Positions 52,920 to 64,000 of a DNA stretch of 64,000 bases are shown here, piece after piece (position 1 is the stretch's first letter; each line of letters begins with the position of its first letter). Position numbers and translations under genes: made by a program. Below the pieces are notes generated by a model. The model made no database searches. It was not told the DNA's origin and worked only from the letters and a program-made list of their open reading frames with translations. Source of the stretch: Ilumatobacteraceae bacterium (lineage in GTDB: Bacteria; Actinomycetota; Acidimicrobiia; Acidimicrobiales; Ilumatobacteraceae); contig JAWPMO010000001.1 in assembly GCA_033344875.1 (NCBI GenBank), positions 1,699,595-1,763,594 of the forward strand, read 5' to 3'.

Positions 52920-54308
52920 TCAGCGCATCGGGTACTTGGCCTTGTCGGGCAGACCCGACCGGGCCGTGATCATCTCGCCGGCGATCTGGGACGCGGCGTA
53001 CAGCTCGGACTCGTCGAGCGTGGTCATCGAGTAGTTCTCGACGACCACGTCGCCGCCGACGAGCACGGTGTGGACGCCGCGGCCGTCGGCCGACCACACG
53101 AGCTGGTTCATCACGTTGAGGAGCGGCCGCCACTCGGGTCGATCGGTGTCGTGCAACACGATGTCGGCGTGCTTGCCGACATCGAGCGACCCGATGTGGT
53201 CGGTGAGCCGCATCGCCTCGGCCCCGCCGAGCGTCGCCATCTCGTACGCCTTCTCGGCCGGGAACATCTGCGGGTCCTGGCGGGCGTCCTTGAACAGGCC
53301 GGCGACCAGGTAGGCGGCCCGCATCATGTCGGAGTAGTTGGCGGCGTTGTTGCCGTCGGTGCCGATCGCCAGGTTGATCCCAGCCATCGCCATCTCGGGC
53401 ATCTTGCCGACCTGCGTGACGCCGTAGCTCACCTTGAGCGCAGTGGTCGGGCAGTGAGCGACCTGGGCGCCGGTCTCTGCGATGATCGCCACCTCCCGGT
53501 CGTCGACCTGCACGCAATGCGTCATCACCACGTCGGGGCCGAGCACGCCGAGTTCGGCGAGATGGACCATCGGTCGGTGCCCGAACTCCTCGATGAACCC
53601 GTCGGGGTCGAGCATCGCCGGCGACATGTGGAAGCTCATGCCCGTGCCGTGCTTCGTCGCCAGTTCGCGGGCGGCGAGCCAGAGCGGGTCGGAACACGTC
53701 GTGTGTCCGACCAGGGTCGACCAGGCCCCGATGCGATCGTCCGGCCCGGCCGGGTACCGGTCGAGCTGGTGCTCGAGGTGGGCGATCGCCTCGTCGGTGG
53801 CCTGCCGGTACACCGACGGCTCCGGCGGCAGGTCCCACACCCAGCGACCGACGCGGCCACGGATACCGACCTCGGTGAGGCCGTCGACGACCTCGTCGAG
53901 GAACCGCGTCGTGCCGGCCTCGAGGAACGACGTGGTGCCCGACTTCAGCATCTCGACCGACGCCAACTGCGCCGACAGGCGTTCCTCCTCGGCGGTGAAC
54001 ACCGAGTACAGCGGGCACAACCACATGAACACGTTCTCGACGAACGGGGTGTCGTCGGGGACGTAGCCCCTGGTCAGCGGCTCGCCGGTGATGTGGATGT
54101 GGCTGTTCACGAGGCCGGGTGTCACCACGAATCGGTCGCCGCCGATTATGCGGTCGGCCTCGTAGTCGGCATCGATGATGCTGGCTTTGTCGACCGCGAC
54201 GATGCGACCGTCGCGCACGGCGACCGCGCCGTCGCGGATGATGTCGCGGGTCGCGTTCATGGTCACGACCTGCCAACCGCGGATGATGGTGTCGACGCGT
54301 TCAGGCAT
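52920..54308 (-). CDS. Amidohydrolase-superfamily deaminase (TrzN/ATZ type)
   Basis: The 462-residue protein has metal ligands H70/H72 in 'LVNSHIHITGEP', 'VGHTTCSDPLW', 'SFHMSPAML', 'VVMTHCVQVDDREV' and the late D in 'LAIGTDGNNAAN'. It is distant from the two other amidohydrolases of the window (different active-site loops), so it probably takes another substrate. It is the last gene of the eleven-gene run; its ATG overlaps the methyltransferase stop by one base. The cysteine in 'AQVAHCPTTAL' fits the family. Confidence 0.8.
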   Translation of the reverse strand: MPERVDTIIRGWQVVTMNATRDIIRDGAVAVRDGRIVAVDKASIIDADYEADRIIGGDRFVVTPGLVNSHIHITGEPLTRGYVPDDTPFVENVFMWLCPLYSVFTAEEERLSAQLASVEMLKSGTTSFLEAGTTRFLDEVVDGLTEVGIRGRVGRWVWDLPPEPSVYRQATDEAIAHLEHQLDRYPAGPDDRIGAWSTLVGHTTCSDPLWLAARELATKHGTGMSFHMSPAMLDPDGFIEEFGHRPMVHLAELGVLGPDVVMTHCVQVDDREVAIIAETGAQVAHCPTTALKVSYGVTQVGKMPEMAMAGINLAIGTDGNNAANYSDMMRAAYLVAGLFKDARQDPQMFPAEKAYEMATLGGAEAMRLTDHIGSLDVGKHADIVLHDTDRPEWRPLLNVMNQLVWSADGRGVHTVLVGGDVVVENYSMTTLDESELYAASQIAGEMITARSGLPDKAKYPMR

Positions 54309-55402
54309 CAGGTGTCCTCTCGTCGTCGTGGTTTCGTGGCCACGAACTGCTGTTGGAATCCGATCGGCTCGATCAGGCGGATCGACTCGAAGCGGGCGGC
54401 ACGGATCCACTCCGAGTACTGCTGGGCGGTGAAGGCGTTGCCGTGGAGCGTGCTCGCCATCATCGTCGCACCCATCAGCACCCCGTGCGGGTTGAGCTTG
54501 CGGTCGATGTCGCAGAAGTAGTCGGCCAGGATCAGGGTTCCCTCGGGCCGCAGCGACGCCATCGCACGATCGATCAGCCGCTTCGTGCCGGCCTCGCCCT
54601 CGGTCCGGCAGATGTGGCCGAGCACGACGATGTCGTAGCCCTCGTCGTCGATCGGCACCGTGTGGAAATCGCCGGGCAGCCACTCGACACGATCGCCGAC
54701 CTCGAACTCAGCGGCCTTCGTTTCGGCCACCGGCAGCACACCGGGCAGGTCGTTCACGGTGGCGGTCGCACCGGGATTGCCGGCCAGGATGGCGATCGCC
54801 CAGGGTGCGCCGCCGGCGCCGAGATCGAGCACCCGTGGCGAACGCAGCGCCGAGTAGCGGAGTTTGAGGTCAGCGCGCGTCGCGCAGCGGAACATCGTGG
54901 TGAACGTGCCCTCGACGAGCGGCACGTAGAACGCCGCCGGGTCGTCCTCGATCGGGGACGAGGGACGGCCGTGGCGAACGGTGTCGGCCAGCCGGGTCCA
55001 GTTGTCGTGCGGGCCCGGCGCCACGGGGATCAGCGCCGCCATCGTCGCCGGGCCGTCGGAGACCAGGTATCGCTTCGCCGTGTCGTTGAGTTCGTACACG
55101 CCGTCGACCTGGTCGAGCATGCCGAGCACGACGACGGAGTCGAGCAGCGTGCGGAGATGTTCGAGCGATGCTCGGACCTCGGCGTTGATCGCCTCGATCC
55201 GTGCCGGCCCGAGCCGCTGCATCGTGTCGAAGAGATCGAGCTCCAGCGCGGCGACGAGCACGTGGTAGCGGGCAAGCCCCTCGATCGCGGCCCAGACGGG
55301 GGCGGCTGCCGGCGGCTTGTAGTCGGTGTACGGGCGCCCGACGTGCGCCATCGTGTGCGTCTTCTTCAGCTCCGGATACGGCGCGTCGCGTGGCTCGAAC
55401 AC
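54308..55402 (-). CDS. Class I SAM-dependent O-methyltransferase-like protein
   Basis: The 364-residue protein has an N-terminal winged-helix dimerisation domain ('YHVLVAALELDLFDTMQ', 'LDQVDGVYELNDTAKRYLV') and a C-terminal Rossmann domain with 'RVLDLGAGGAPWAIAILAGN', 'ATVNDLPGVLPVAE', 'VEWLPGDFHT' and 'GTLILADYFC'. This order is that of plant-type O-methyltransferases (Methyltransf_2). The usual catalytic histidine is not obvious ('LGHICRTEGE' may supply it). The GTG start is preceded by a 23-base perfect palindrome. It would methylate a hydroxyl of the pathway intermediate, or act as a paralogue with altered function. Confidence 0.78.
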   Translation of the reverse strand: MFEPRDAPYPELKKTHTMAHVGRPYTDYKPPAAAPVWAAIEGLARYHVLVAALELDLFDTMQRLGPARIEAINAEVRASLEHLRTLLDSVVVLGMLDQVDGVYELNDTAKRYLVSDGPATMAALIPVAPGPHDNWTRLADTVRHGRPSSPIEDDPAAFYVPLVEGTFTTMFRCATRADLKLRYSALRSPRVLDLGAGGAPWAIAILAGNPGATATVNDLPGVLPVAETKAAEFEVGDRVEWLPGDFHTVPIDDEGYDIVVLGHICRTEGEAGTKRLIDRAMASLRPEGTLILADYFCDIDRKLNPHGVLMGATMMASTLHGNAFTAQQYSEWIRAARFESIRLIEPIGFQQQFVATKPRRREDT

Positions 55403-55452: not shown

Positions 55453-56487
55453 TCATGGCCGGAGGATGATCTTGCCGAAGACGTCGTTGCTCAGCAGCTT
55501 GTGTTGGGCGTCCGCTGCAGCTTCGAGCGGGAAGACCGAGTCGACCACGACCTGGAAGTCGCCGTCGCAGAACCGCTGCCAGACCGGACCGAACTCCTCG
55601 GGCCGGTACGGGTCGGAGCCGAGGATCTTGATCCCGGAGTGGAACAGGTAACCGAGCGACGGGATCGTCGCCTCGTCACCCGACGAGTTGCCACAGTTGA
55701 CGAGCCGTCCGTGGACACCGAGCGCGAACAGCGAGGGGCCGAACAGTGCGGTGCCGACATGGTCGAACACCATGTTGACGCCCGCGCCGGCCGTCAGCTC
55801 GCGAGCCCACGCGGCGACGTCGCCGGTGCGATTGTTGAGCGTCGCCGCGGCGCCGAGTTCGAGCGCCCGCGCGCACTTGTCGTCGGTACCGGCCGTCGCA
55901 TAGACCGTCGCGCCGGCGGCGACGGCGAGTTGGATCGCCGCCGTCGAGACACCCGAACCGGCGGCGTGGATCAGCACCGTCTCCCCCGCCGTCAGATCGC
56001 CGACGTCGAACAGCGCATGCGCTGCGGTGAGGAAGCACGTGGGGAAGGTGGCCGCATGCTCGAACGTCATCCCGTCGGGGATCGCATACACGTGCGAGGC
56101 GGGCACGAGGCACCGCTCGGCGTAGCCGCCGTCGACGTTCGCACCGATGATCCCCAGTTCACCGAACAGGTCGCCCATGCCACCGAGCTTCGACCGGTCG
56201 TCGACGCCGGCGAGCGAGGGGTCGACCACGACACGGTCGCCGACCGCGACATCGGTCACCTCCGAGCCGACGGCCGCCACCGTTCCGGCGACGTCCATGC
56301 CGGCGATGTGCGGTAACCGGAAGCCGTCCATCTGGAACCACCCGTTGCGCTGGATGACGTCGAGCCGGTTCAGCGCGGCGGCGGCCACGTCGACGACGAC
56401 GTCGACCGGACCGGGTTCGGGGTCGGGCACCTCGACGTACTCGAGCACCTCGGGCCCACCGGGCCGTTCGTAGCGGACTGCTTTCAT
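55453..56487 (-). CDS. MDR-superfamily quinone-oxidoreductase-like dehydrogenase
   Basis: The 344-residue medium-chain reductase has an N-terminal GroES-like domain ('VVVDVAAAALNRLDVIQRNG', 'LPHIAGMDVAGTVAAVGSEV') and a Rossmann domain with 'ETVLIHAAGSGVSTAAIQLA'. The catalytic zinc cysteine and histidine are missing, and the four structural zinc cysteines are absent, so it belongs to the zinc-free quinone oxidoreductase/crotonyl reductase branch. AAGGAG stands six bases before the ATG. Start overlaps the aldo/keto reductase stop. Confidence 0.83.
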   Translation of the reverse strand: MKAVRYERPGGPEVLEYVEVPDPEPGPVDVVVDVAAAALNRLDVIQRNGWFQMDGFRLPHIAGMDVAGTVAAVGSEVTDVAVGDRVVVDPSLAGVDDRSKLGGMGDLFGELGIIGANVDGGYAERCLVPASHVYAIPDGMTFEHAATFPTCFLTAAHALFDVGDLTAGETVLIHAAGSGVSTAAIQLAVAAGATVYATAGTDDKCARALELGAAATLNNRTGDVAAWARELTAGAGVNMVFDHVGTALFGPSLFALGVHGRLVNCGNSSGDEATIPSLGYLFHSGIKILGSDPYRPEEFGPVWQRFCDGDFQVVVDSVFPLEAAADAQHKLLSNDVFGKIILRP

Positions 56488-57512
56488 CGGGCTCTCCTTC
56501 GCTGCGAGACGTCGAGCCCGTCGGGCGTCCAACCGGCGTCGGCGGCGTTCAGGTTGCGTCCCGGCGCGACGACCTGGTCGATCGCGTCGAGGGTCGACGC
56601 ATCGAGCCGGAGATCGATGGCACCGAGCAGATCGTGCAACTGCGCCGGAGTGCGCGGACCGATCAGTGCCGCCGTCACCGCCGGGTGCTCGACCACCCAC
56701 GCCAGCGCAAGATGCGTGAGGCTGACTCCGGCCTCGGCCGCGATCGCCGCCAGCCGTTCGGCCGCGTCGAACTTGGCCTCGTTGCCCACGTCGAAGTGAT
56801 CGGGGTTCGTCTCGGCTCGGCTCCCCGCGGGCGCCGACTCGCCACGGCGGTACTTGCCGGTCAGCCAGCCACCGGCGAGCGGGCTCCACACCACGACGCC
56901 CATGCCGTGCCGGCGGGCGGTCGGCAGCACGGCGTTCTCGATGCCGCGACCGAAGATCGAGTAGGGCGGCTGCTCGGTGTGCGGGCCGGCGAGCCCGCGT
57001 CGTTCGGCCGCCCAGTGGGCTTCGACGATCTGCTCGGCCGGGAACGTGGAGGTGCCCCACGCCCGGATCTTGCCCGCCGTCACCAGGTCGTTCAGCGCCG
57101 CCACGGTCTCCTCGATCGCGGTGTCGGGGTCGGGGCGGTGCACCTGGTACAGGTCGATGTGATCGACGCCGAGCCGGCGCAGGCTGTCGTCGATCGCCCT
57201 CATGATCCAGCGGCGCGAGTTGCCGCGCCGGTTCGGGTCGTCGTGGTCGCCGACCGGGTGGTGGAACTTGGTGCACAGCACGATGTCGTCACGGCGGGAT
57301 GCGATCGCCTCGCCGACGATCTGTTCGTTCTCGCCGTCGGCGTACATGTCGGCAGTGTCGACCAGGTTGATGCCCGCGTCGAGCGCCTCGTCGATGATTC
57401 GGCGGCACTCGTCTCGGTCGGTGTTGCCCCACGCGCCCAGCACCATCGTGCCGAGCCCGAAGCGGCTGACGTGCATGCCGGTGCGGCCGAGGGTCCTGTG
57501 TTCCAACTTCAT
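56484..57512 (-). CDS. Aldo/keto reductase
   Basis: The 342-residue NADPH-dependent TIM-barrel enzyme has the catalytic tetrad D52 ('LVDTADMYADG'), Y57, K82 ('VLCTKFHH') and H125 ('DLYQVHRPDPD'). 'HRTLGRTGMHVSRFGLG' is the family N-terminus. Cofactor-binding 'SPLAGGWLTGKYRRG' and 'ALIGPRTPAQLHDLL' are present. It reduces an aldehyde or ketone, or oxidises an alcohol. ATG 57512 starts at the family N-terminus; an in-frame ATG at 57545 would overlap the upstream stop. Confidence 0.85.
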   Translation of the reverse strand: MKLEHRTLGRTGMHVSRFGLGTMVLGAWGNTDRDECRRIIDEALDAGINLVDTADMYADGENEQIVGEAIASRRDDIVLCTKFHHPVGDHDDPNRRGNSRRWIMRAIDDSLRRLGVDHIDLYQVHRPDPDTAIEETVAALNDLVTAGKIRAWGTSTFPAEQIVEAHWAAERRGLAGPHTEQPPYSIFGRGIENAVLPTARRHGMGVVVWSPLAGGWLTGKYRRGESAPAGSRAETNPDHFDVGNEAKFDAAERLAAIAAEAGVSLTHLALAWVVEHPAVTAALIGPRTPAQLHDLLGAIDLRLDASTLDAIDQVVAPGRNLNAADAGWTPDGLDVSQRRRAR

Positions 57513-57534
57513 CGTCCTTTCGAGCGGGTCGTCA

Positions 57535-58953
57535 TCAGCCGGCATCGATGTGGGGCCACGCGTGGGGCACGGTCAGGCCGGCACGCTCGAGCACGCGGGC
57601 CTGGTGGTGCTGCGCCATCGCGGCGAGCTCGTCCCGATCCACCGCGGTCGGACAGCCGTCCGCCACCACTTGGCGACCGGCGACCCAGACGTCACGGACG
57701 CTTCGGCCATCGGTACCCCAGACGAGCTGCAGGGCGACGTCGCCGCGCGGCGTCCAGCCGGGAGTGTCGGTGCGGTGCACCACGAGGTCGGCCTGCTTGC
57801 CCGGCTCGAGGGAACCGACGCGGTCGTCCATCCCGATCGCGGCGGCACCGTCGATCGTCGCGAGCGCGAACGCATCATGTGCTCCGAATCGGGTCGGGTC
57901 GATGCGCGTGTCGCGTGCGAGTCCGGCAGCGACCGCCGCGGTACGGAGGATGTCGATCGAATCCCCGGCGTTCGTCGCGTCACATCCCAGAGCGACACGG
58001 CCACCGCGCTCCATGATCTCGGCGTGTCGTCCGTGTGCGCACACTCCCTGCCCGAGACGTAGGTAGGCCCACGGGCAGTATGCGATCGCGGTCCGGCTCC
58101 GGAGCACGAGCTCGATCTCCGCATCGTCGAGCCAGACGCCGTGCCCGATGAGCAGGTGCTCACCGAGTACGTCGAGCGCATCGAGGTGCGCCACCGGTCG
58201 CCGTCCGGTGCGGGCGAGGTACCGCTCGGGATCGGACGACGTGGGCGACAGGTGCATCGTCATGTTGGTGCCCCGCTGCCGGGCGAGGTCGGCCGCGCCT
58301 GCGAGCAACTCGTCGGAGGCAAGGTCGTGGCCGACCAACGTCACCCAACCCTCGACCAGACCGCCGGCCGGGAACGCGTCGACGACCGCCGCCTGACGCT
58401 CGAGCACCTCGTCGGCGGGCGCCGCGAACGGTCCCTCCTCGATATCCCATCCCCACACGCCCAGCGTGGCGCGGAGCCCGATCCGGGTCAGGCCCGCCGC
58501 GACCCGGTCGGCGTGTGCGACGGTGCCGGCCTCCACGACGGTGGTCACACCCGCACAGAGTGCTTCGACGGCGGAGAGCACGGCGGAAGCCTCGTCGTCG
58601 TCGGGCTGGTGCGCAGCGTGTACGGGGACCGACCACTCGAAGATGGAGGCTCCGGGCGGGAGGAGATCAGGAATGCAGCTGCGGATCAGCGGGTCTCCGG
58701 TCAGGTGTTGGTGGGCGTCGATCATGCCCGGCGTGAGCACACAACCCCGCAGGTCGATCTCGCGCGCGTCCGGATGGTCGGCGCGCAGCTGTGACGTTGC
58801 CCCGACGGCGACGATCCGATCACCAGCGATCGCGACCGCGCCGCTGACGAGTACCTCGCGTCGCGGGTTCATGGTCACGACGTCGGCTTCGACGAGCAAC
58901 GTGATCTCGTCGGATCGCGCCGAGGCGGAGGACGAGGCGGTCGGAGTGGTCAC
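57535..58953 (-). CDS. Amidohydrolase-superfamily deaminase, paralogue of the 45.4-kb gene
   Basis: The 472-residue protein has metal ligands H81/H83 in 'MIDAHQHLTGDPLIRS', 'VTLVGHDLASDEL', 'NMTMHLSPTSSDP', 'LLIGHGVWLDDAEIELVL' and the late D in 'VALGCDATNAGD'. Compared with the 45391 gene, the middle and C-terminal sections align throughout without large gaps ('CPWAYLRLGQGV', 'GSLEPGKQADLVV'). Both carry the same long insertion near 'GVWGWDIEEGPF'. GTG start lies two bases after the HD gene stop. Confidence 0.82.
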   Translation of the reverse strand: MTTPTASSSASARSDEITLLVEADVVTMNPRREVLVSGAVAIAGDRIVAVGATSQLRADHPDAREIDLRGCVLTPGMIDAHQHLTGDPLIRSCIPDLLPPGASIFEWSVPVHAAHQPDDDEASAVLSAVEALCAGVTTVVEAGTVAHADRVAAGLTRIGLRATLGVWGWDIEEGPFAAPADEVLERQAAVVDAFPAGGLVEGWVTLVGHDLASDELLAGAADLARQRGTNMTMHLSPTSSDPERYLARTGRRPVAHLDALDVLGEHLLIGHGVWLDDAEIELVLRSRTAIAYCPWAYLRLGQGVCAHGRHAEIMERGGRVALGCDATNAGDSIDILRTAAVAAGLARDTRIDPTRFGAHDAFALATIDGAAAIGMDDRVGSLEPGKQADLVVHRTDTPGWTPRGDVALQLVWGTDGRSVRDVWVAGRQVVADGCPTAVDRDELAAMAQHHQARVLERAGLTVPHAWPHIDAG

Positions 58954-58955
58954 GG

Positions 58956-59600
58956 TCAGCCGCGGCGGGGTGGGCGAGAGAAGACCTTGCGCACGAGCGG
59001 CTCGAAGTGGTCGAGGGATTCGGAGGGGTACTTCGGGTCGAACGCCGTCTGGTCCCAGACATCGGCGAACCGTTCGGCCATCTCGTAGTGCTCGTGACCG
59101 AGGTGCTTGCGACGCATCTCGGGGTCCATCCCGATGCGGGCGTAATAGTGGCGACCCTGGAAGTCCTGGTGGTACTTGACCACCCAGTACGCCTCGTCGC
59201 TGACCCACGGCCGGAGCATCTCGGCTGCGATCGCGGGGTGGTTCATGTTCGAGAATGTCTTGCCGATGTCGTGGCACAACGAGGCGATGACCATGTCCTC
59301 GTCGGCACCGTCGCGCTCGGCCCGCGTCGCGGTCTGGAGCGCGTGATCGAGTTGGCTGACCGCGAACCCCTGATGCAGTTCGTCCATCGACCGGAGCATG
59401 TCCATCACCCGGTCGGCCACGAGTACCAGGTCGGCATCGAGGTAGTCCTCGATGTAGGTCATGTACTCGCCGGAGAACTCGGCCATGCTGCCGCCGATCT
59501 CCCCATCGAATCCGGGCGAGCCGGGCTGGGCCACACGCTCGCGAGCAGCTGTGACGCGGTCGGCCGAGGTGCTCGTGCTGGTGTTGTCGGTGTCGGTCAT
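58956..59600 (-). CDS. HD-domain protein with full PhnZ/MIOX-type diiron ligand set
   Basis: The 214-residue protein aligns with PhnZ-type oxygenases. Ligand positions are H86 ('SQLDHALQTA'), H110-D111 ('ASLCHDIGKTF'), H121 ('NMNHPAI'), H144 ('VVKYHQDFQG') and D183 ('ADVWDQTAF'), matching PhnZ H34, H58-D59, H80, H104 and D161 in order and context. Such enzymes use a mixed-valent diiron site and O2 to cleave a C-P, C-C or similar bond. HD hydrolases also bind two metals, so phosphohydrolase activity remains possible. No other phosphonate genes are near. GGAGG precedes the ATG. Confidence 0.75.
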   Translation of the reverse strand: MTDTDNTSTSTSADRVTAARERVAQPGSPGFDGEIGGSMAEFSGEYMTYIEDYLDADLVLVADRVMDMLRSMDELHQGFAVSQLDHALQTATRAERDGADEDMVIASLCHDIGKTFSNMNHPAIAAEMLRPWVSDEAYWVVKYHQDFQGRHYYARIGMDPEMRRKHLGHEHYEMAERFADVWDQTAFDPKYPSESLDHFEPLVRKVFSRPPRRG

Positions 59601-59633: not shown

Positions 59634-60824
59634 TCAACGGTCGCCGACGAAACGATCGGGGAGGCCGGTGGTCGTGCCGGCGACGCGGGCGCCGGGTGCC
59701 TCGTACGGATGTGCTGCGCAGGCATCTTCGTCGATCGCCACGCCGAGGCCCGGCGCGTCGGGTATGGGCAGATGGCCGTCGTCGATGGCGTCGAGGCCGA
59801 GCGCTGCGCCGGTACCGAACGTCTTCCAGACGGGCAGCAGGGTGGGCGGGTACTCGACGAGACGAATCCCGGGCACGCTCGCCGCGAGATGGAGATTCGC
59901 AGCCAGGGCTACGGGTCCGGAACACACGTGCGGCACGACCCGAACGCCGAACGCCGGAGCGGCCATCGCCATCTTGCGGGCCTCGCTGATACCGCCTGCG
60001 GTGGCGGCGTCGGGCTGCAGCACGTCGAGCTGGCGGCGGCGGAGCGCATCGAGTGCATCGTCGAGACCGAAGAGGTGCTCGCCGTACGCCACGGGTATCG
60101 GCGAGTGGCCGACGAGGGCCTCGATGCCGGCCTTCTCCGACTGTGGAAGCGGCTCCTCGATCCAACGCACGTCGAACTCGGTGAGCGCTTCGGCGAGCGC
60201 GCGTGCCGTCGGCAGGGTGTACGTCTCGCTGGCGTCGACCATCAACTCGACGTCGGCGCCGAGCATCGGCCGCAGCTTGCGCAGGGTGTCGAGGTCGGAC
60301 CGCCATTCGGGTCCGGTACGCACCTTGATCTTGCGGACACCACGTTCGAGCAGTGGGCGCAGCCCATCGAAGTGGTGTTCGGCCGACCCTTCTTCCAGGA
60401 ATCCGGACGAGGCGTACACCTCGACGCGGTCGGCTGTGCGACCGAGCACGCTCGAGATCGACCGGCCCGTCGCCTGGCCGACCAGATCCCAGAGCGCGAT
60501 CTCGATGCCGGAGCGGGCCTGGGGTGCGATCCAGGTGTCACCGAGCCGGCGGCGGGTGAACAGTCGCATCCGGTCGGCGAGCAGGTCGACCGACGTCAGC
60601 GGTTGGTCGATGATCAGGGGGGCGAACACCTCGTCGATCAAGTGGGCGAGCACGCCGGCATACGAGCACCCGTAACTGTCGCACGCTTCTCCCCATCCGA
60701 CGGTGCCGTCGGAGGCGGTGACGCGGACGTACAGGAACGACATCCGTTCGCGGTCGGTGCCGTACGTGCACGGGAAGGTGTCGATCCGCTCGATCGTCAG
60801 GGACGGCGCAGCCACATCGATCAC
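59634..60824 (-). CDS. Enolase-superfamily enzyme, mandelate-racemase subgroup
   Basis: The 396-residue enzyme has an N-terminal capping domain and a beta-barrel. Metal ligands are D197 ('LMVDASETY'), E223 or E224 ('RWIEEPL') and E249 ('AYGEH'). The bases are K167 in K165-I-K167 ('VRKIKVRTG') and the dyad D272 ('LQPDAATAGG') with H299 ('VVPHVCSG'). The 27-residue D-H spacing equals that of mandelate racemase. Members are acid-sugar dehydratases or racemases; substrate unknown. The GTG start overlaps the stop of the VOC gene. Confidence 0.86.
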   Translation of the reverse strand: MIDVAAPSLTIERIDTFPCTYGTDRERMSFLYVRVTASDGTVGWGEACDSYGCSYAGVLAHLIDEVFAPLIIDQPLTSVDLLADRMRLFTRRRLGDTWIAPQARSGIEIALWDLVGQATGRSISSVLGRTADRVEVYASSGFLEEGSAEHHFDGLRPLLERGVRKIKVRTGPEWRSDLDTLRKLRPMLGADVELMVDASETYTLPTARALAEALTEFDVRWIEEPLPQSEKAGIEALVGHSPIPVAYGEHLFGLDDALDALRRRQLDVLQPDAATAGGISEARKMAMAAPAFGVRVVPHVCSGPVALAANLHLAASVPGIRLVEYPPTLLPVWKTFGTGAALGLDAIDDGHLPIPDAPGLGVAIDEDACAAHPYEAPGARVAGTTTGLPDRFVGDR

Positions 60825-61297
60825 CCGAGCACCTGCTCGACGGAGAACTCGAGGTTGTTGCCGTCAGGGTCGGTGACGATGCAGATGTAACCGACGACCT
60901 CGTTGCGGTACATCGGGCCGAGCAGCAGGCAGCCGTCCTCACGGGCCATCTCGGCGATCCGGTCGACCTCCTCACGACGCTCGAGCGAGAGTCCGAGGTG
61001 GCTGATCGAGGTGAGGAACCCGTACTGCTCCTGGATGTCACCCGTGATCTTGGTGGGCAGCTTGCCCTCGATCAACACGATCACGAACCGTGCCGCCTCG
61101 TCGGTGGTGCGGTCGCGTTCGTTGGCGAGCCACGCCGTGCGCAGATCGGTTTCGGGGTCGTGCCGCTGGTGGATCACTGCCAGGTCGGTGTACTTGTCGT
61201 AGAACGCGAGTGTCGCGGCGAGGTTGCGCACGGGCAACGCGATGTGCGTGAGCAGCGTGGTCGTCTTGGCACCGGTGGGCGTGTCGATATCGGTCAT
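60821..61297 (-). CDS. Glyoxalase/VOC-family protein in the transport-catabolism operon
   Basis: The 158-residue VOC protein has 'LLTHIALPVRNLAATLAFYD', 'SISHLGLSLERREEVDRIA' and 'VGYICIVTDPDGNNLEFSVE'. Metal ligand candidates are H18, H in 'SISHLG', and E in 'NNLEFS', which is the three-residue facial set of lactoylglutathione-lyase-like and extradiol-type VOC enzymes. It may be an epimerase, lyase or dioxygenase. AGGAGG stands six bases before its ATG; it is the first enzyme gene after the permeases. Confidence 0.82.
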   Translation of the reverse strand: MTDIDTPTGAKTTTLLTHIALPVRNLAATLAFYDKYTDLAVIHQRHDPETDLRTAWLANERDRTTDEAARFVIVLIEGKLPTKITGDIQEQYGFLTSISHLGLSLERREEVDRIAEMAREDGCLLLGPMYRNEVVGYICIVTDPDGNNLEFSVEQVLG

Positions 61298-61307
61298 GGA
61301 AACCCTC

Positions 61308-62243
61308 CTACTTGAGTCCGCGGATGAACGGTTGCGCCAACGCCACGGGCGGCCGCACGCGGCCGGCGAACAGCGACATGGCGACGATGGTGACCACGAA
61401 CGGCAGCGACGTCAGCAGGTCACCGTTCAGTTCGTAGCCCAGCGCCGGGAGCGACAACCGGAACGACAGGACCGCGCCGAACAGGAGACAACCCGCGAGA
61501 GTGCCGCGCAGTGTCCAGCCACCGAAGATCACGGCGATCAGGGCGATGAAGCCGCGTCCTCCGACGATCGAGTCCTCGAACTGGCCGACGGCTCCGAGCA
61601 TCAGGTATGCCCCACCGATGCCCGAGGTGACGCCGGTGACATAGATGCCTTGGCGGCGCCGCTTGTTGACGTCGATACCGCTCACGTCGGCGGATTGCGG
61701 GTTCTCGCCGGTCGCCCGCAGTTCGAGGCCCCAGCGCGTGCGGAACACGATCCACCAGCAGATCGGCACGACCGCGTAGATGAGATAGAACATCCACGTC
61801 CGGTCGAAGAGCGCCTGGCCCACGAGCGGGATGTCGGCCAGCAGCGGGATCCGTTGGGTTCCGGCCTTGCGCGTGACGGGGTCGAGGACCGACGCGAGAT
61901 AGCTGGTCAGCCCCAGCACCAGAATGTTGAGCGTCAGACCCACGACGAACTGGTTGGCGACGAGGCGATGGCTCATGTTGGCCTGGACCGAAGCGACCAG
62001 GACACCGGCCAGAATCGCGCATCCCACGGCGGCGAGCTCGCTGCCGGTCCGGTCCATGCCGATCGCGGCCGCGAAGGCGCCGCCGAGGAACATCGCCTCG
62101 ATCGAGATGTTGAGGGTGCCCGATCGCTCGGCGACCCACTCGCCCGTGGCGCCGAAGGCGAGGAACACGGCGAACGTGAAGGCGTTGATGTAGGCGGCTT
62201 CCGACGTCAGGACGTCGCCGATCGCGGTGAGGACGTCGATCAT
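61308..62243 (-). CDS. BMP-family nucleoside-type ABC transporter permease (NupQ/YufQ-like)
   Basis: The 311-residue membrane protein has nine or ten helices and the BPD_transp_2 signature 'GLELRATGENPQSADVSGID' (cytoplasmic coupling loop), 'NISIEAMFLGGAFAAAIGM' and 'FIALIAVIFGGWTLRGTLAG'. It pairs with the next permease as a heterodimer. Characterised systems of this class import nucleosides using a BMP lipoprotein; none lies inside the window. The ATG overlaps the other permease stop (ATGA). Confidence 0.85.
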   Translation of the reverse strand: MIDVLTAIGDVLTSEAAYINAFTFAVFLAFGATGEWVAERSGTLNISIEAMFLGGAFAAAIGMDRTGSELAAVGCAILAGVLVASVQANMSHRLVANQFVVGLTLNILVLGLTSYLASVLDPVTRKAGTQRIPLLADIPLVGQALFDRTWMFYLIYAVVPICWWIVFRTRWGLELRATGENPQSADVSGIDVNKRRRQGIYVTGVTSGIGGAYLMLGAVGQFEDSIVGGRGFIALIAVIFGGWTLRGTLAGCLLFGAVLSFRLSLPALGYELNGDLLTSLPFVVTIVAMSLFAGRVRPPVALAQPFIRGLK

Positions 62244-63490
62244 GTGCGGTCACCCCCACTGTTCATGGCCCGACGTCGCTGTCGCAGGAACAGCAATGCC
62301 GGCGGGATCAGGAGTGCCAGCACCAGGAGACCCTGCACGACGTCGGTGATCCGACGCTCGACGCCGGTGGCGGCGAGGAAGCCCGACCCGGTGCGGAGGG
62401 CGGCGAACACGAACGCGATGACGATCGCGACCGATGCCCGCTGTCTCGACACGAGAGCGACGAGGAGGCCCGTCCAACCGATCGTGGCCGGGAAGCCCGG
62501 GACGAGGGTGTAGTTGCCGAAGTCGCCGCCGGCGAGCATCATGCCGCCGGCGAGGCCGGCGAACCCGCCGGAGACGAGGAGTGCGCCACCACCGTAGCGG
62601 GACGCCGCGACCCCGGCTCGCTGGGCGGTGCGCGGGTTGTGGCCCAGCATCCGGAGCCGCAGGCCCCAGACGGTGCGGGCGAGCGCGGCGGCGATCAGGA
62701 ACGCCAGCAGGATCGCGGCGAAGGCCGAGATCGGGAACTCGTTGCCGAACCAGGTGATCCGCGGAATGCGCGTCTCGTCGGGCAACTGTCGGCTGATCTG
62801 CTGGCGGCTGGCGCGACCCTCGGCAGGGGCGAGCAGCAGCCATTGGTTCTTGAGTCCGAAACCGACCAGTTGGGCGGCGACCGTGACCAGCAACAAGGTG
62901 GTCAGGACCTCGGGCACGTTGCGCGTGTAGCGCAGCACCGCGGCGATGCCGGCCCACAGTGCTCCCCCGAGCACGCTGGCCGCGAGGAGGAGGAGCACGA
63001 CCCACGGCCCGGACCAGCCGAGCTTGGTGCCGAAGTAGGCGCCGAACGCGGCGCCGAGGTAGAGCTGGCCCTCCTGCCCGATGTTGACCAGTCCGGCTCG
63101 GTTCGACGCGATCGTGCCGATGGCGACGAGCAGGAGCGGAATAGCGACGCCGATGGTGGCTCCGATCCGACCCGGACCTCGGATGCTGCCGTCGAGGAGC
63201 GCGGCGAACACTTCCGACGACGACCCGCCGGTGAGCTCGACGAGCAGCGCCGACAAACCGAGTGCCGCGGCGATGCAGATCGCGTACAGCCCGGCCACCT
63301 CGGCGATCGCCTTGACCCGGTCGACGTGCGGCGTCGAGGGATTGGGGTGCTGGGGCTCCTCGGTCAGCGTGCCGTCGGTCCCCATCTCGGGCTTGAAGTC
63401 GTCGGCGTCGTGACCGTGGTGCTGTTCGCGAGAGCCTGTTGTGTTGTCGGCCGCGTGCTGCGACGTGAGATGTCCTGGTTCGACCGTCAC
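62240..63490 (-). CDS. BMP-family nucleoside-type ABC transporter permease (NupP/YufP-like)
   Basis: The 416-residue permease has a soluble N-terminus of about 60 residues, then ten helices. Key segments are 'LVNIGQEGQLYLGAAFGAYF', 'GLRLRMLGHNPRTAQRAGVA' (coupling loop), 'GGFAGLAGGMMLAGGDF' and 'LVALVSRQRASVAIVIAFVF'. It is the partner of the 311-residue permease. The GTG start overlaps the ATPase stop (GTGA). The long N-terminal tail is unusual; a later start is possible. Confidence 0.82.
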   Translation of the reverse strand: MTVEPGHLTSQHAADNTTGSREQHHGHDADDFKPEMGTDGTLTEEPQHPNPSTPHVDRVKAIAEVAGLYAICIAAALGLSALLVELTGGSSSEVFAALLDGSIRGPGRIGATIGVAIPLLLVAIGTIASNRAGLVNIGQEGQLYLGAAFGAYFGTKLGWSGPWVVLLLLAASVLGGALWAGIAAVLRYTRNVPEVLTTLLLVTVAAQLVGFGLKNQWLLLAPAEGRASRQQISRQLPDETRIPRITWFGNEFPISAFAAILLAFLIAAALARTVWGLRLRMLGHNPRTAQRAGVAASRYGGGALLVSGGFAGLAGGMMLAGGDFGNYTLVPGFPATIGWTGLLVALVSRQRASVAIVIAFVFAALRTGSGFLAATGVERRITDVVQGLLVLALLIPPALLFLRQRRRAMNSGGDRT

Positions 63491-64000
63491 GCGACCTGCC
63501 CTCCCATCATGAGACCGATCCGCTCCAGGTCGGCGTCGTTCCGGTCCATCTCGCCGATGATGCGCCCGTCGGAGATGACGATGATCCGGTGAGCGAGATC
63601 GAGGATTTCTTCGAGTTCGCTCGAGATCAGCAGGACGCCGACCCCGTCTTCGGCGGCGCGGCGGATTCGGTCGGTCATGTACTCGATCGCGCCGACATCG
63701 AGCCCGCGGGTGGGCTGGGCAGCGACGAGCACCTTGGGCTGGATCGAGAGTTCGCGCGCCAACACGACTCGCTGTTGGTTGCCGCCCGACAGTGAGAACA
63801 GCGGGGCGTCGGGGCCGGAGCAACTGATCTCGAACTCGTCGATCAGCTGGGCGGCGGTTCGTCTCATGTGGCGGTGGTCGAGCACGCCGGCGTGCGACAC
63901 GGTGCTGGTGTCGACGAGCCAGAGGTTCTCGGCAACCGACATTTCGAGGACCACGCCGGAGTCGTGGCGATCTTCGGGGATGACCCCCACCCCGGCTCGG
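63487..64000 (-). CDS. ABC transporter ATP-binding protein, second cassette, partial
   Basis: The coding region continues to the right edge and the beginning is outside the window. The visible part is the second nucleotide-binding cassette of a sugar/nucleoside-type ATPase: 'VGVIPEDRHDSGVVLEMSVA', signature 'FSLSGGNQQRVVLARE', Walker B 'VLVAAQPTRGLDVGA' and switch 'LLISSELEEILDLAHRI'. The Walker B glutamate position reads Q ('AAQPTRG'), as often seen in such cassettes. It powers the two downstream permeases and is part of the same operon. Confidence 0.85.
   Translation of the reverse strand, partial: RAGVGVIPEDRHDSGVVLEMSVAENLWLVDTSTVSHAGVLDHRHMRRTAAQLIDEFEISCSGPDAPLFSLSGGNQQRVVLARELSIQPKVLVAAQPTRGLDVGAIEYMTDRIRRAAEDGVGVLLISSELEEILDLAHRIIVISDGRIIGEMDRNDADLERIGLMMGGQVA

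Follow-up and report, generated by a model that had tools for sequence, protein, structure and literature searches.

A 214-residue HD-domain protein encoded in an Ilumatobacteraceae genome has the iron-binding site and the predicted fold of a rare group of oxygenases without their grip on phosphonates, and it probably oxidises some other substrate. We consider it likely that this HD protein is a diiron oxygenase, as yet uncharacterised, that acts on a substrate other than a phosphonate and probably cleaves a C-C bond. Three HD oxygenases, MIOX, PhnZ and TmpB, are named in a published account that expects more of them (PMC8177086), and the phosphonate versions GmPhnZ and PhoF were added later (PMC10574752). 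Among openly licensed PMC papers, we found no description or biochemistry of any member of the family studied here.

The HD gene lies on the minus strand and runs from position 59600 down to 58956 of the window, i.e., the whole stretch of 64,000 nucleotides that was analysed, in a host genome of 4.97 Mb. GGAGG precedes its ATG, and a GTG 2 bases past its TGA is the inferred start of a downstream amidohydrolase gene, which makes the HD gene a member of a compact same-strand cluster. In the window, the following genes surround it:

63487..64000, minus strand: ABC ATPase, truncated at the edge of the window
62240..63361, minus strand: second ABC permease, start approximate (NF047929, 103 bits, under the cut-off of 400)
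61308..62243, minus strand: ABC importer permease (PF02653)
60821..61297, minus strand: VOC/glyoxalase-fold protein (PF00903)
59634..60824, minus strand: enolase-superfamily protein of the mandelate racemase/muconate lactonizing type, acid-sugar dehydratase-like (PF13378, 194 bits)
58956..59600, minus strand: HD-domain oxygenase-like protein, 214 residues, ATG at 59600 and TGA at 58958-58956 (PF01966, 25.4 bits; TIGR03276, 46.3 bits)
57535..58953, minus strand: amidohydrolase (TRZ/ATZ, 5'-deoxyadenosine-deaminase-like), GTG start inferred (PF01979, 140 bits)
56484..57545, minus strand: aldo/keto reductase (PF00248)
55453..56487, minus strand: zinc-type quinone oxidoreductase (PF00107/PF08240)
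54308..55402, minus strand: O-methyltransferase-like protein (PF00891)
52920..54308, minus strand: second amidohydrolase, start approximate (PF01979, 152 bits)

A promoter and terminator scan gave no promoter-like site, and terminator-like sites occur at chance level. Upstream, the same strand continues beyond the window, so that the minus-strand order begins with a GntR regulator, a VanA-type Rieske oxygenase, hydantoinases A and B, a CoA ligase, a Rieske oxygenase and a Bmp-type binding protein (all beyond the window), followed by the ABC ATPase, the two permeases, the VOC protein, the enolase, the HD protein, the amidohydrolase, the aldo/keto reductase, the quinone oxidoreductase, the methyltransferase and the second amidohydrolase. 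Several of these resemble named enzymes at scores under the respective cut-offs: the hydantoinases are caprolactamase-like, both amidohydrolases are nearest to 5'-deoxyadenosine deaminase (for 57535..58953, the best NCBIfam model is NF005557 with 227 bits vs a cut-off of 522), and the NCBIfam dehydratase models all stay under cut-off for the enolase-superfamily protein. As the cluster genes scanned with NCBIfam thus fall under the cut-offs of named enzymes, we assign no pathway.

The setting itself is a conserved catabolic gene cluster. An enolase gene adjoins the HD gene in nine of ten subclade loci (the window, L044, L048-L053 and L057, not L047), and at L057 it does so though none of the other genes searched for was found; L042/L048 and L043/L049 are the same contigs and were each counted once. 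Among named loci, the nearest belong to Ilumatobacter and Acidimicrobiaceae MAGs and have 85-87% identity, and a contig search with the single HD protein gave 6 loci.

The argument for an oxygenase starts from the metal site. The preliminary description had lined up H86, H110-D111, H121, H144 and D183 with the six diiron ligands of PhnZ. All of these residues are present in the HD protein and correctly numbered, and the match to PhnZ held up in a profile alignment, where H86, H110 and D111 pair with H34, H58 and D59, and D183 pairs with D161 in a weak segment. In a profile-profile alignment, all six pair with equivalents in a set of seven Phn-HD/TmpB sequences that includes a genuine TmpB. The codons of these residues, and of one further residue of interest, lie at the following positions (invariance refers to the 68-sequence alignment described below):

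59343..59345, minus strand: H86 (PhnZ H34), aligned to H34, invariant in 68/68
59268..59273, minus strand: H110-D111 (PhnZ H58-D59), aligned, invariant in 68/68
59259..59261, minus strand: K114 (PhnZ H62 position; Lys in the HDLGK of MIOX), K in 25/25 rows of the protein's own clade
59238..59240, minus strand: H121 (PhnZ H80 position), paired with H86 of the TmpB row, invariant in 68/68
59169..59171, minus strand: H144 (PhnZ H104 position), paired with H109 of the TmpB row, invariant in 68/68
59052..59054, minus strand: D183 (PhnZ D161, in the weak second segment), paired with D166 of the TmpB row, invariant in 68/68

An alignment of 68 sequences, i.e., the window's own and 67 homologues, was obtained from 82 family rows by omitting 11 plasmid rows, the second L067 copy, the short L084 and L094_2565. 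It has 15 invariant columns, which include all six ligands, a coincidence with a chance of about 4e-8 if invariant columns were placed at random. Only 4 of the 10 histidines of the HD protein are invariant, and these are exactly the four named as ligands. Exceptions appear in the 82-row table: D183 is replaced by Pro in one own-clade row (L094_2565, probably frameshifted and absent from the 68), and H86 and D183 each fail in one Phn-type row. Four of the six ligands are expected in almost any HD enzyme, and H121 and H144 are the informative ones. Extra histidines occur in HD-GYP phosphodiesterases and in the phosphatase YqeK, too (PMC8177086), so that the ligand set by itself is no proof of an oxygenase.

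The residue that follows the HDxG motif divides the family further. It is K in 25/25 rows of the protein's own clade, as in MIOX, D in 42/42 rows of a sister clade and H in 14/15 Phn-HD/TmpB rows, a signature that cleanly separates the wider family from the phosphonate enzymes at the level of the alignment. The lysine of the MIOX motif HDLGK is presumably residue number 127.

Structure prediction, which the preliminary description had proposed with two irons in place, points the same way. An AlphaFold2 model of the HD protein, built from 10 sequences and without irons, reached a mean pLDDT of 84.8 and a pTM of 0.78, and a Foldseek search with it returned 10 chains at E <= 0.001, every one of them PhnZ or TmpB. 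With VIA-align, the model is nearest to PhnZ (Z 18.8, 155 residues aligned, 2.7 Å, 23% identity) and TmpB (Z 17.9), then to MIOX (Z 11.8), after which the best chains are GlyRS (9.1) and a tRNA processing enzyme (9.0). Among hydrolases, the scores were 8.4 for exopolyphosphatase, 8.1 and 7.9 (3ccg) for predicted HD hydrolases, 7.2 for HD-GYP and 7.1 for YqeK, with SAMHD1 near 7. Since helical folds may reach a Z of about 13 in this method without kinship, the likeness to MIOX is suggestive and that to PhnZ/TmpB clear. The predicted fold thus clearly places the HD protein with PhnZ/TmpB, though a common fold does not establish function.

Profile searches gave the same ranking. Against the PDB, the family profile found PhnZ at 4.4e-13 and TmpB at 9.9e-10, with dGTPase-like chains at 0.018, and a profile-profile comparison with the seven Phn-HD/TmpB sequences gave a probability figure of 98.9% and an E-value of 2e-17. 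With a profile of the protein's own clade, MIOX ranks next after TmpB at an E-value of 0.11, which alone is not significant; a significant link to MIOX from sequence comparison was considered and rejected (E 0.11-0.64).

We think it unlikely that the HD protein is instead a dinuclear HD phosphohydrolase of YqeK type, whose substrate would be a nucleotide or another phosphate ester from the operon. Its sole Pfam match over cut-off is the HD superfamily model PF01966 (25.4 vs 22 bits), YqeK is a dinuclear iron phosphatase (PMC8177086), and YqeK and the HD-GYP hydrolases share the HD scaffold and include dinuclear ligand sets; the amidohydrolases nearest to 5'-deoxyadenosine deaminase (under cut-off) and the Bmp type of the importer would also suit such a substrate. 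However, no hydrolase exceeds a Z of 8.4 against 18.8 for PhnZ (7.9 or lower for YqeK/HD-GYP among the rows seen), and none came under an E-value of 0.01 in the profile searches. HD phosphohydrolases are described as typically carrying an Arg three residues ahead of the first His (PMC8177086), and this position is Gln (Q83) in 25/25 own-clade rows. In the sister clade, the residue equivalent to position 83 is Arg in 42/42 rows, each also with the Asp after HDxG, a combination found in 0/15 Phn-HD/TmpB rows; with this phosphatase-like Arg, not every part of the wider family resembles the oxygenases.

The trees bear on the same question. A first tree omitted Phn row L114, whose extraction was poor, and 18 near-copies out of 112 rows; for a more careful one, we kept 51 of 94 rows, and the deliberate omissions include three long hydrolase rows and one Phn row. 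The 15 Phn rows comprise three with a TmpB-like gene context (L142, L144 and L147, the first of which exceeded the TmpB cut-off when tested), three annotated phosphonate HD oxygenases (L141, L143 and L146), one Rhodococcus plasmid row (L145) and eight from a genome search with 95-213 bits, short of the 214.6 that the Phn-HD model requires; they do not include PhnZ itself. None of 149 genomes from the phylum gave a MIOX match above cut-off, and the trees therefore contain no MIOX row. The N-terminus of L047 in the second alignment (A2) probably includes non-coding residues. In the careful tree, the HDxGK (K), HDxGD (D) and Phn groups each fall on one side of a branch, with supports of 92/94, 85/88 and 99/95, while very long branches lead to the hydrolases, and one such hydrolase row joins the Phn group. 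The HD protein is found in no hydrolase group, i.e., not in the placement that had been named beforehand as speaking against an oxygenase. An exclusive kinship with the Phn enzymes is neither supported nor rejected: constraining K, D and Phn together against the hydrolases costs 1.38 log units (p-AU 0.196, with 51 rows and long hydrolase branches). Taken with the fold and the sequence profiles, the missing phosphatase Arg supports the proposed kinship with the HD oxygenases.

PhnZ and TmpB are the nearest characterised relatives of the HD protein, and it could in principle be a PhnZ-type oxygenase that cleaves the C-P bond of an unusual phosphonate, which we regard as very unlikely. PhnZ (4mlm, 4n6w, 4n71), the oxygenase of 2-amino-1-hydroxyethylphosphonate, shares its fold and ligand positions with the HD protein, and TmpB (6npa) shares the fold and the order H..HD..H..H..D. 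In PhnZ, Y24 and E27 form the substrate loop, H62 contacts the substrate hydroxyl, and D161, R158 and E162 form a proton chain (PMC7916636, PMC8177086). Direct profile alignment pairs E27 and H62 with F79 and K114 of the HD protein and Y24 with a gap, and its weak second segment, with which the profile-profile alignment to the TmpB set agrees, pairs R158, D161 and E162 with D180, D183 and Q184; PhnZ K108 aligns with Q148. The YxxE substrate loop shared by PhnZ and TmpB is thus missing from the HD protein, and E27, H62, R158 and E162 are all substituted.

The own-clade rows repeat the pattern at three of these positions. In the multiple alignment, their residue at the Y24 position is Asp, Gln or Gly, never Tyr; the E27 position is F in 25/25 own-clade rows and F or Y in 41/42 sister-clade rows, against E in 13/15 Phn rows; and the R158 position is D in 24/25 own-clade rows and R in 15/15 Phn rows. 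The stretch between HD and H121 is also shorter by 11 residues than in PhnZ, and next to the HD gene in the window there is no gene for a hydroxylase resembling PhnY or TmpA. With MIOX (2huo, 2ibn), the HD protein has in common the HDxGK motif, the string H-A-x-Q-T-A and the fold, though the MIOX target chains are longer (241-258 residues). The HD protein as PhnZ, TmpB or MIOX proper was also considered and rejected, as all scores are under cut-off: 46.3 vs 214.6 bits for Phn-HD (TIGR03276), 30.6 vs 300 for PhnZ1 (NF052439), 29.1 vs 300 for TmpB (NF049941) and 22.4 vs 25 for MIOX (PF05153, covering residues 71-117 only). A TmpA/TmpB control pair passes both of its cut-offs, with 357.6 bits for the control TmpB.

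The genome scans also count against C-P cleavage. The preliminary description had found no phosphonate genes in the window, and this extends to the whole genome for the models tested: PhnJ had no match, with a control genome over cut-off, and PhnX, PhnW, Phn-HD, TmpA and TmpB had none over cut-off, with no control genome over cut-off for these. The TmpA model has three matches of 218-293 of 400 bits, the nearest about 43 kb beyond the window, and two PF12974 binding proteins are encoded in the genome, both outside the window. Elsewhere, TmpA-like partners stand at some sister-clade loci, and three clade relatives adjoin a binding-protein gene that is of the phosphonate type PF12974 in the one scanned; however, these relatives also carry urocanase, and the binding protein need not carry phosphonates. 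The suggestion of a non-phosphonate substrate is therefore supported by the loss of the YxxE loop, E27, H62 and R158, and likewise because none of the phosphonate-breakdown models tested exceeds its cut-off in the genome.

Least probable of all is that the HD scaffold serves here as a metal-dependent lyase or hydratase, or that it binds metal without being an enzyme. One HD lyase is known as a precedent, the cyanamide hydratase Ddi2, whose terminal Asp is Thr (PMC8177086), whereas the HD protein has D183, invariant in 68/68.

Relatives of the HD protein are common, with 64/100 relatives having a match when weak matches are counted, and not all of them sit in catabolic clusters. The window's own genome holds two more copies, L087 (C1:2625027-2626693) and L082 (C1:4274610), both of the HDxGD clade, and 15 proteobacterial plasmids have a family match, of which the 11 that were read belong to the HDxGD clade as well. 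A TmpA-like gene, encoding a 2-oxoglutarate oxygenase, stands directly upstream in 7/51 HDxGD loci, several of the 51 having short flanks. These seven (L034, L067, L071, L076, L087, L094 and L096) include some near-copies and the L087 locus of the window's own genome, and the four partners scored reach 234-348 bits vs a cut-off of 400. The pairing mirrors PhnY-PhnZ and TmpA-TmpB, and only through this analogy does it speak for oxygenase chemistry in the HDxGD part of the family. A TmpA-HD fusion at L087 was considered and rejected, as nothing but the HD gene was recognised in its 909-residue open frame, with the TmpA-like gene alongside in another frame.

At L034, on a Pseudomonas aeruginosa plasmid, a choline dehydrogenase and a choline-transport binding protein also adjoin. 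Three plasmid HDxGD genes (L031, L032 and L035) lie near class II aldolase/adducin genes, one of them on a 12.9-kb mobilizable Sphingobium plasmid, and a Phaeobacter plasmid relative is annotated as "inositol oxygenase family protein", i.e., automatic annotation had already noticed the resemblance to inositol oxygenase. Two contigs from a viral collection (L148 and L149) encode HDxGK-clade proteins with all six ligands.

Among 19 genomic non-operon copies of clade relatives, nine (L046, L054, L055, L056, L061, L062, L064, L069 and L070) have ispH (LytB) upstream on the same strand at 0.1-1.4 kb, and acyltransferase, cytidylate kinase and EPSP synthase genes are close by at several of these loci, a housekeeping-like setting for which there is no evident reason. 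Three more of the 19 (L058, L060 and L065) are those with the binding-protein gene, and they adjoin urocanase and amidohydrolase genes. As nine clade relatives adjoin ispH and not catabolic clusters, the clade need not have a single function.

What the analysis shows directly is the set of six ligands with its invariance, the predicted fold and the loss of the phosphonate-recognition residues, and by analogy with PhnZ and MIOX we infer the iron, the use of O2, the reaction and the substrate. On these grounds, the HD protein is most likely a mixed-valent diiron oxygenase that would cleave a C-C bond as MIOX does. One iron would bind the substrate through neighbouring oxygens, with K114 in place of PhnZ H62 and matching the MIOX lysine, and O2 would bind the other iron, with no capping tyrosine in the HD protein. 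A superoxo species could then abstract a hydrogen from the carbinol carbon, and the adjacent bond would be broken in a four-electron oxidation that needs no external reductant. As substrate, a hydroxylated, phosphorus-free C-C compound seems likely, and an acid product would suit the neighbouring enolase that resembles acid-sugar dehydratases. To judge from the amidohydrolases, hydantoinase A/B and the Rieske oxygenases, the parent compound may be a nitrogen heterocycle, a lactam or a nucleoside-like molecule imported by the ABC system.

More tentatively, the HDxGK clade as a whole may form a branch of HD diiron oxygenases separate from MIOX and the PhnZ/TmpB kin, characterised by reductant-free C-C cleavage of a hydroxylated, phosphorus-free substrate, with the HDxGD clade as another branch that sometimes works with TmpA-like hydroxylases. 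The HD protein lets the question be put whether mixed-valent diiron chemistry occurs outside inositol and phosphonates, and its clean active-site signature and conserved gene cluster make the reach of this chemistry beyond these compounds directly testable.
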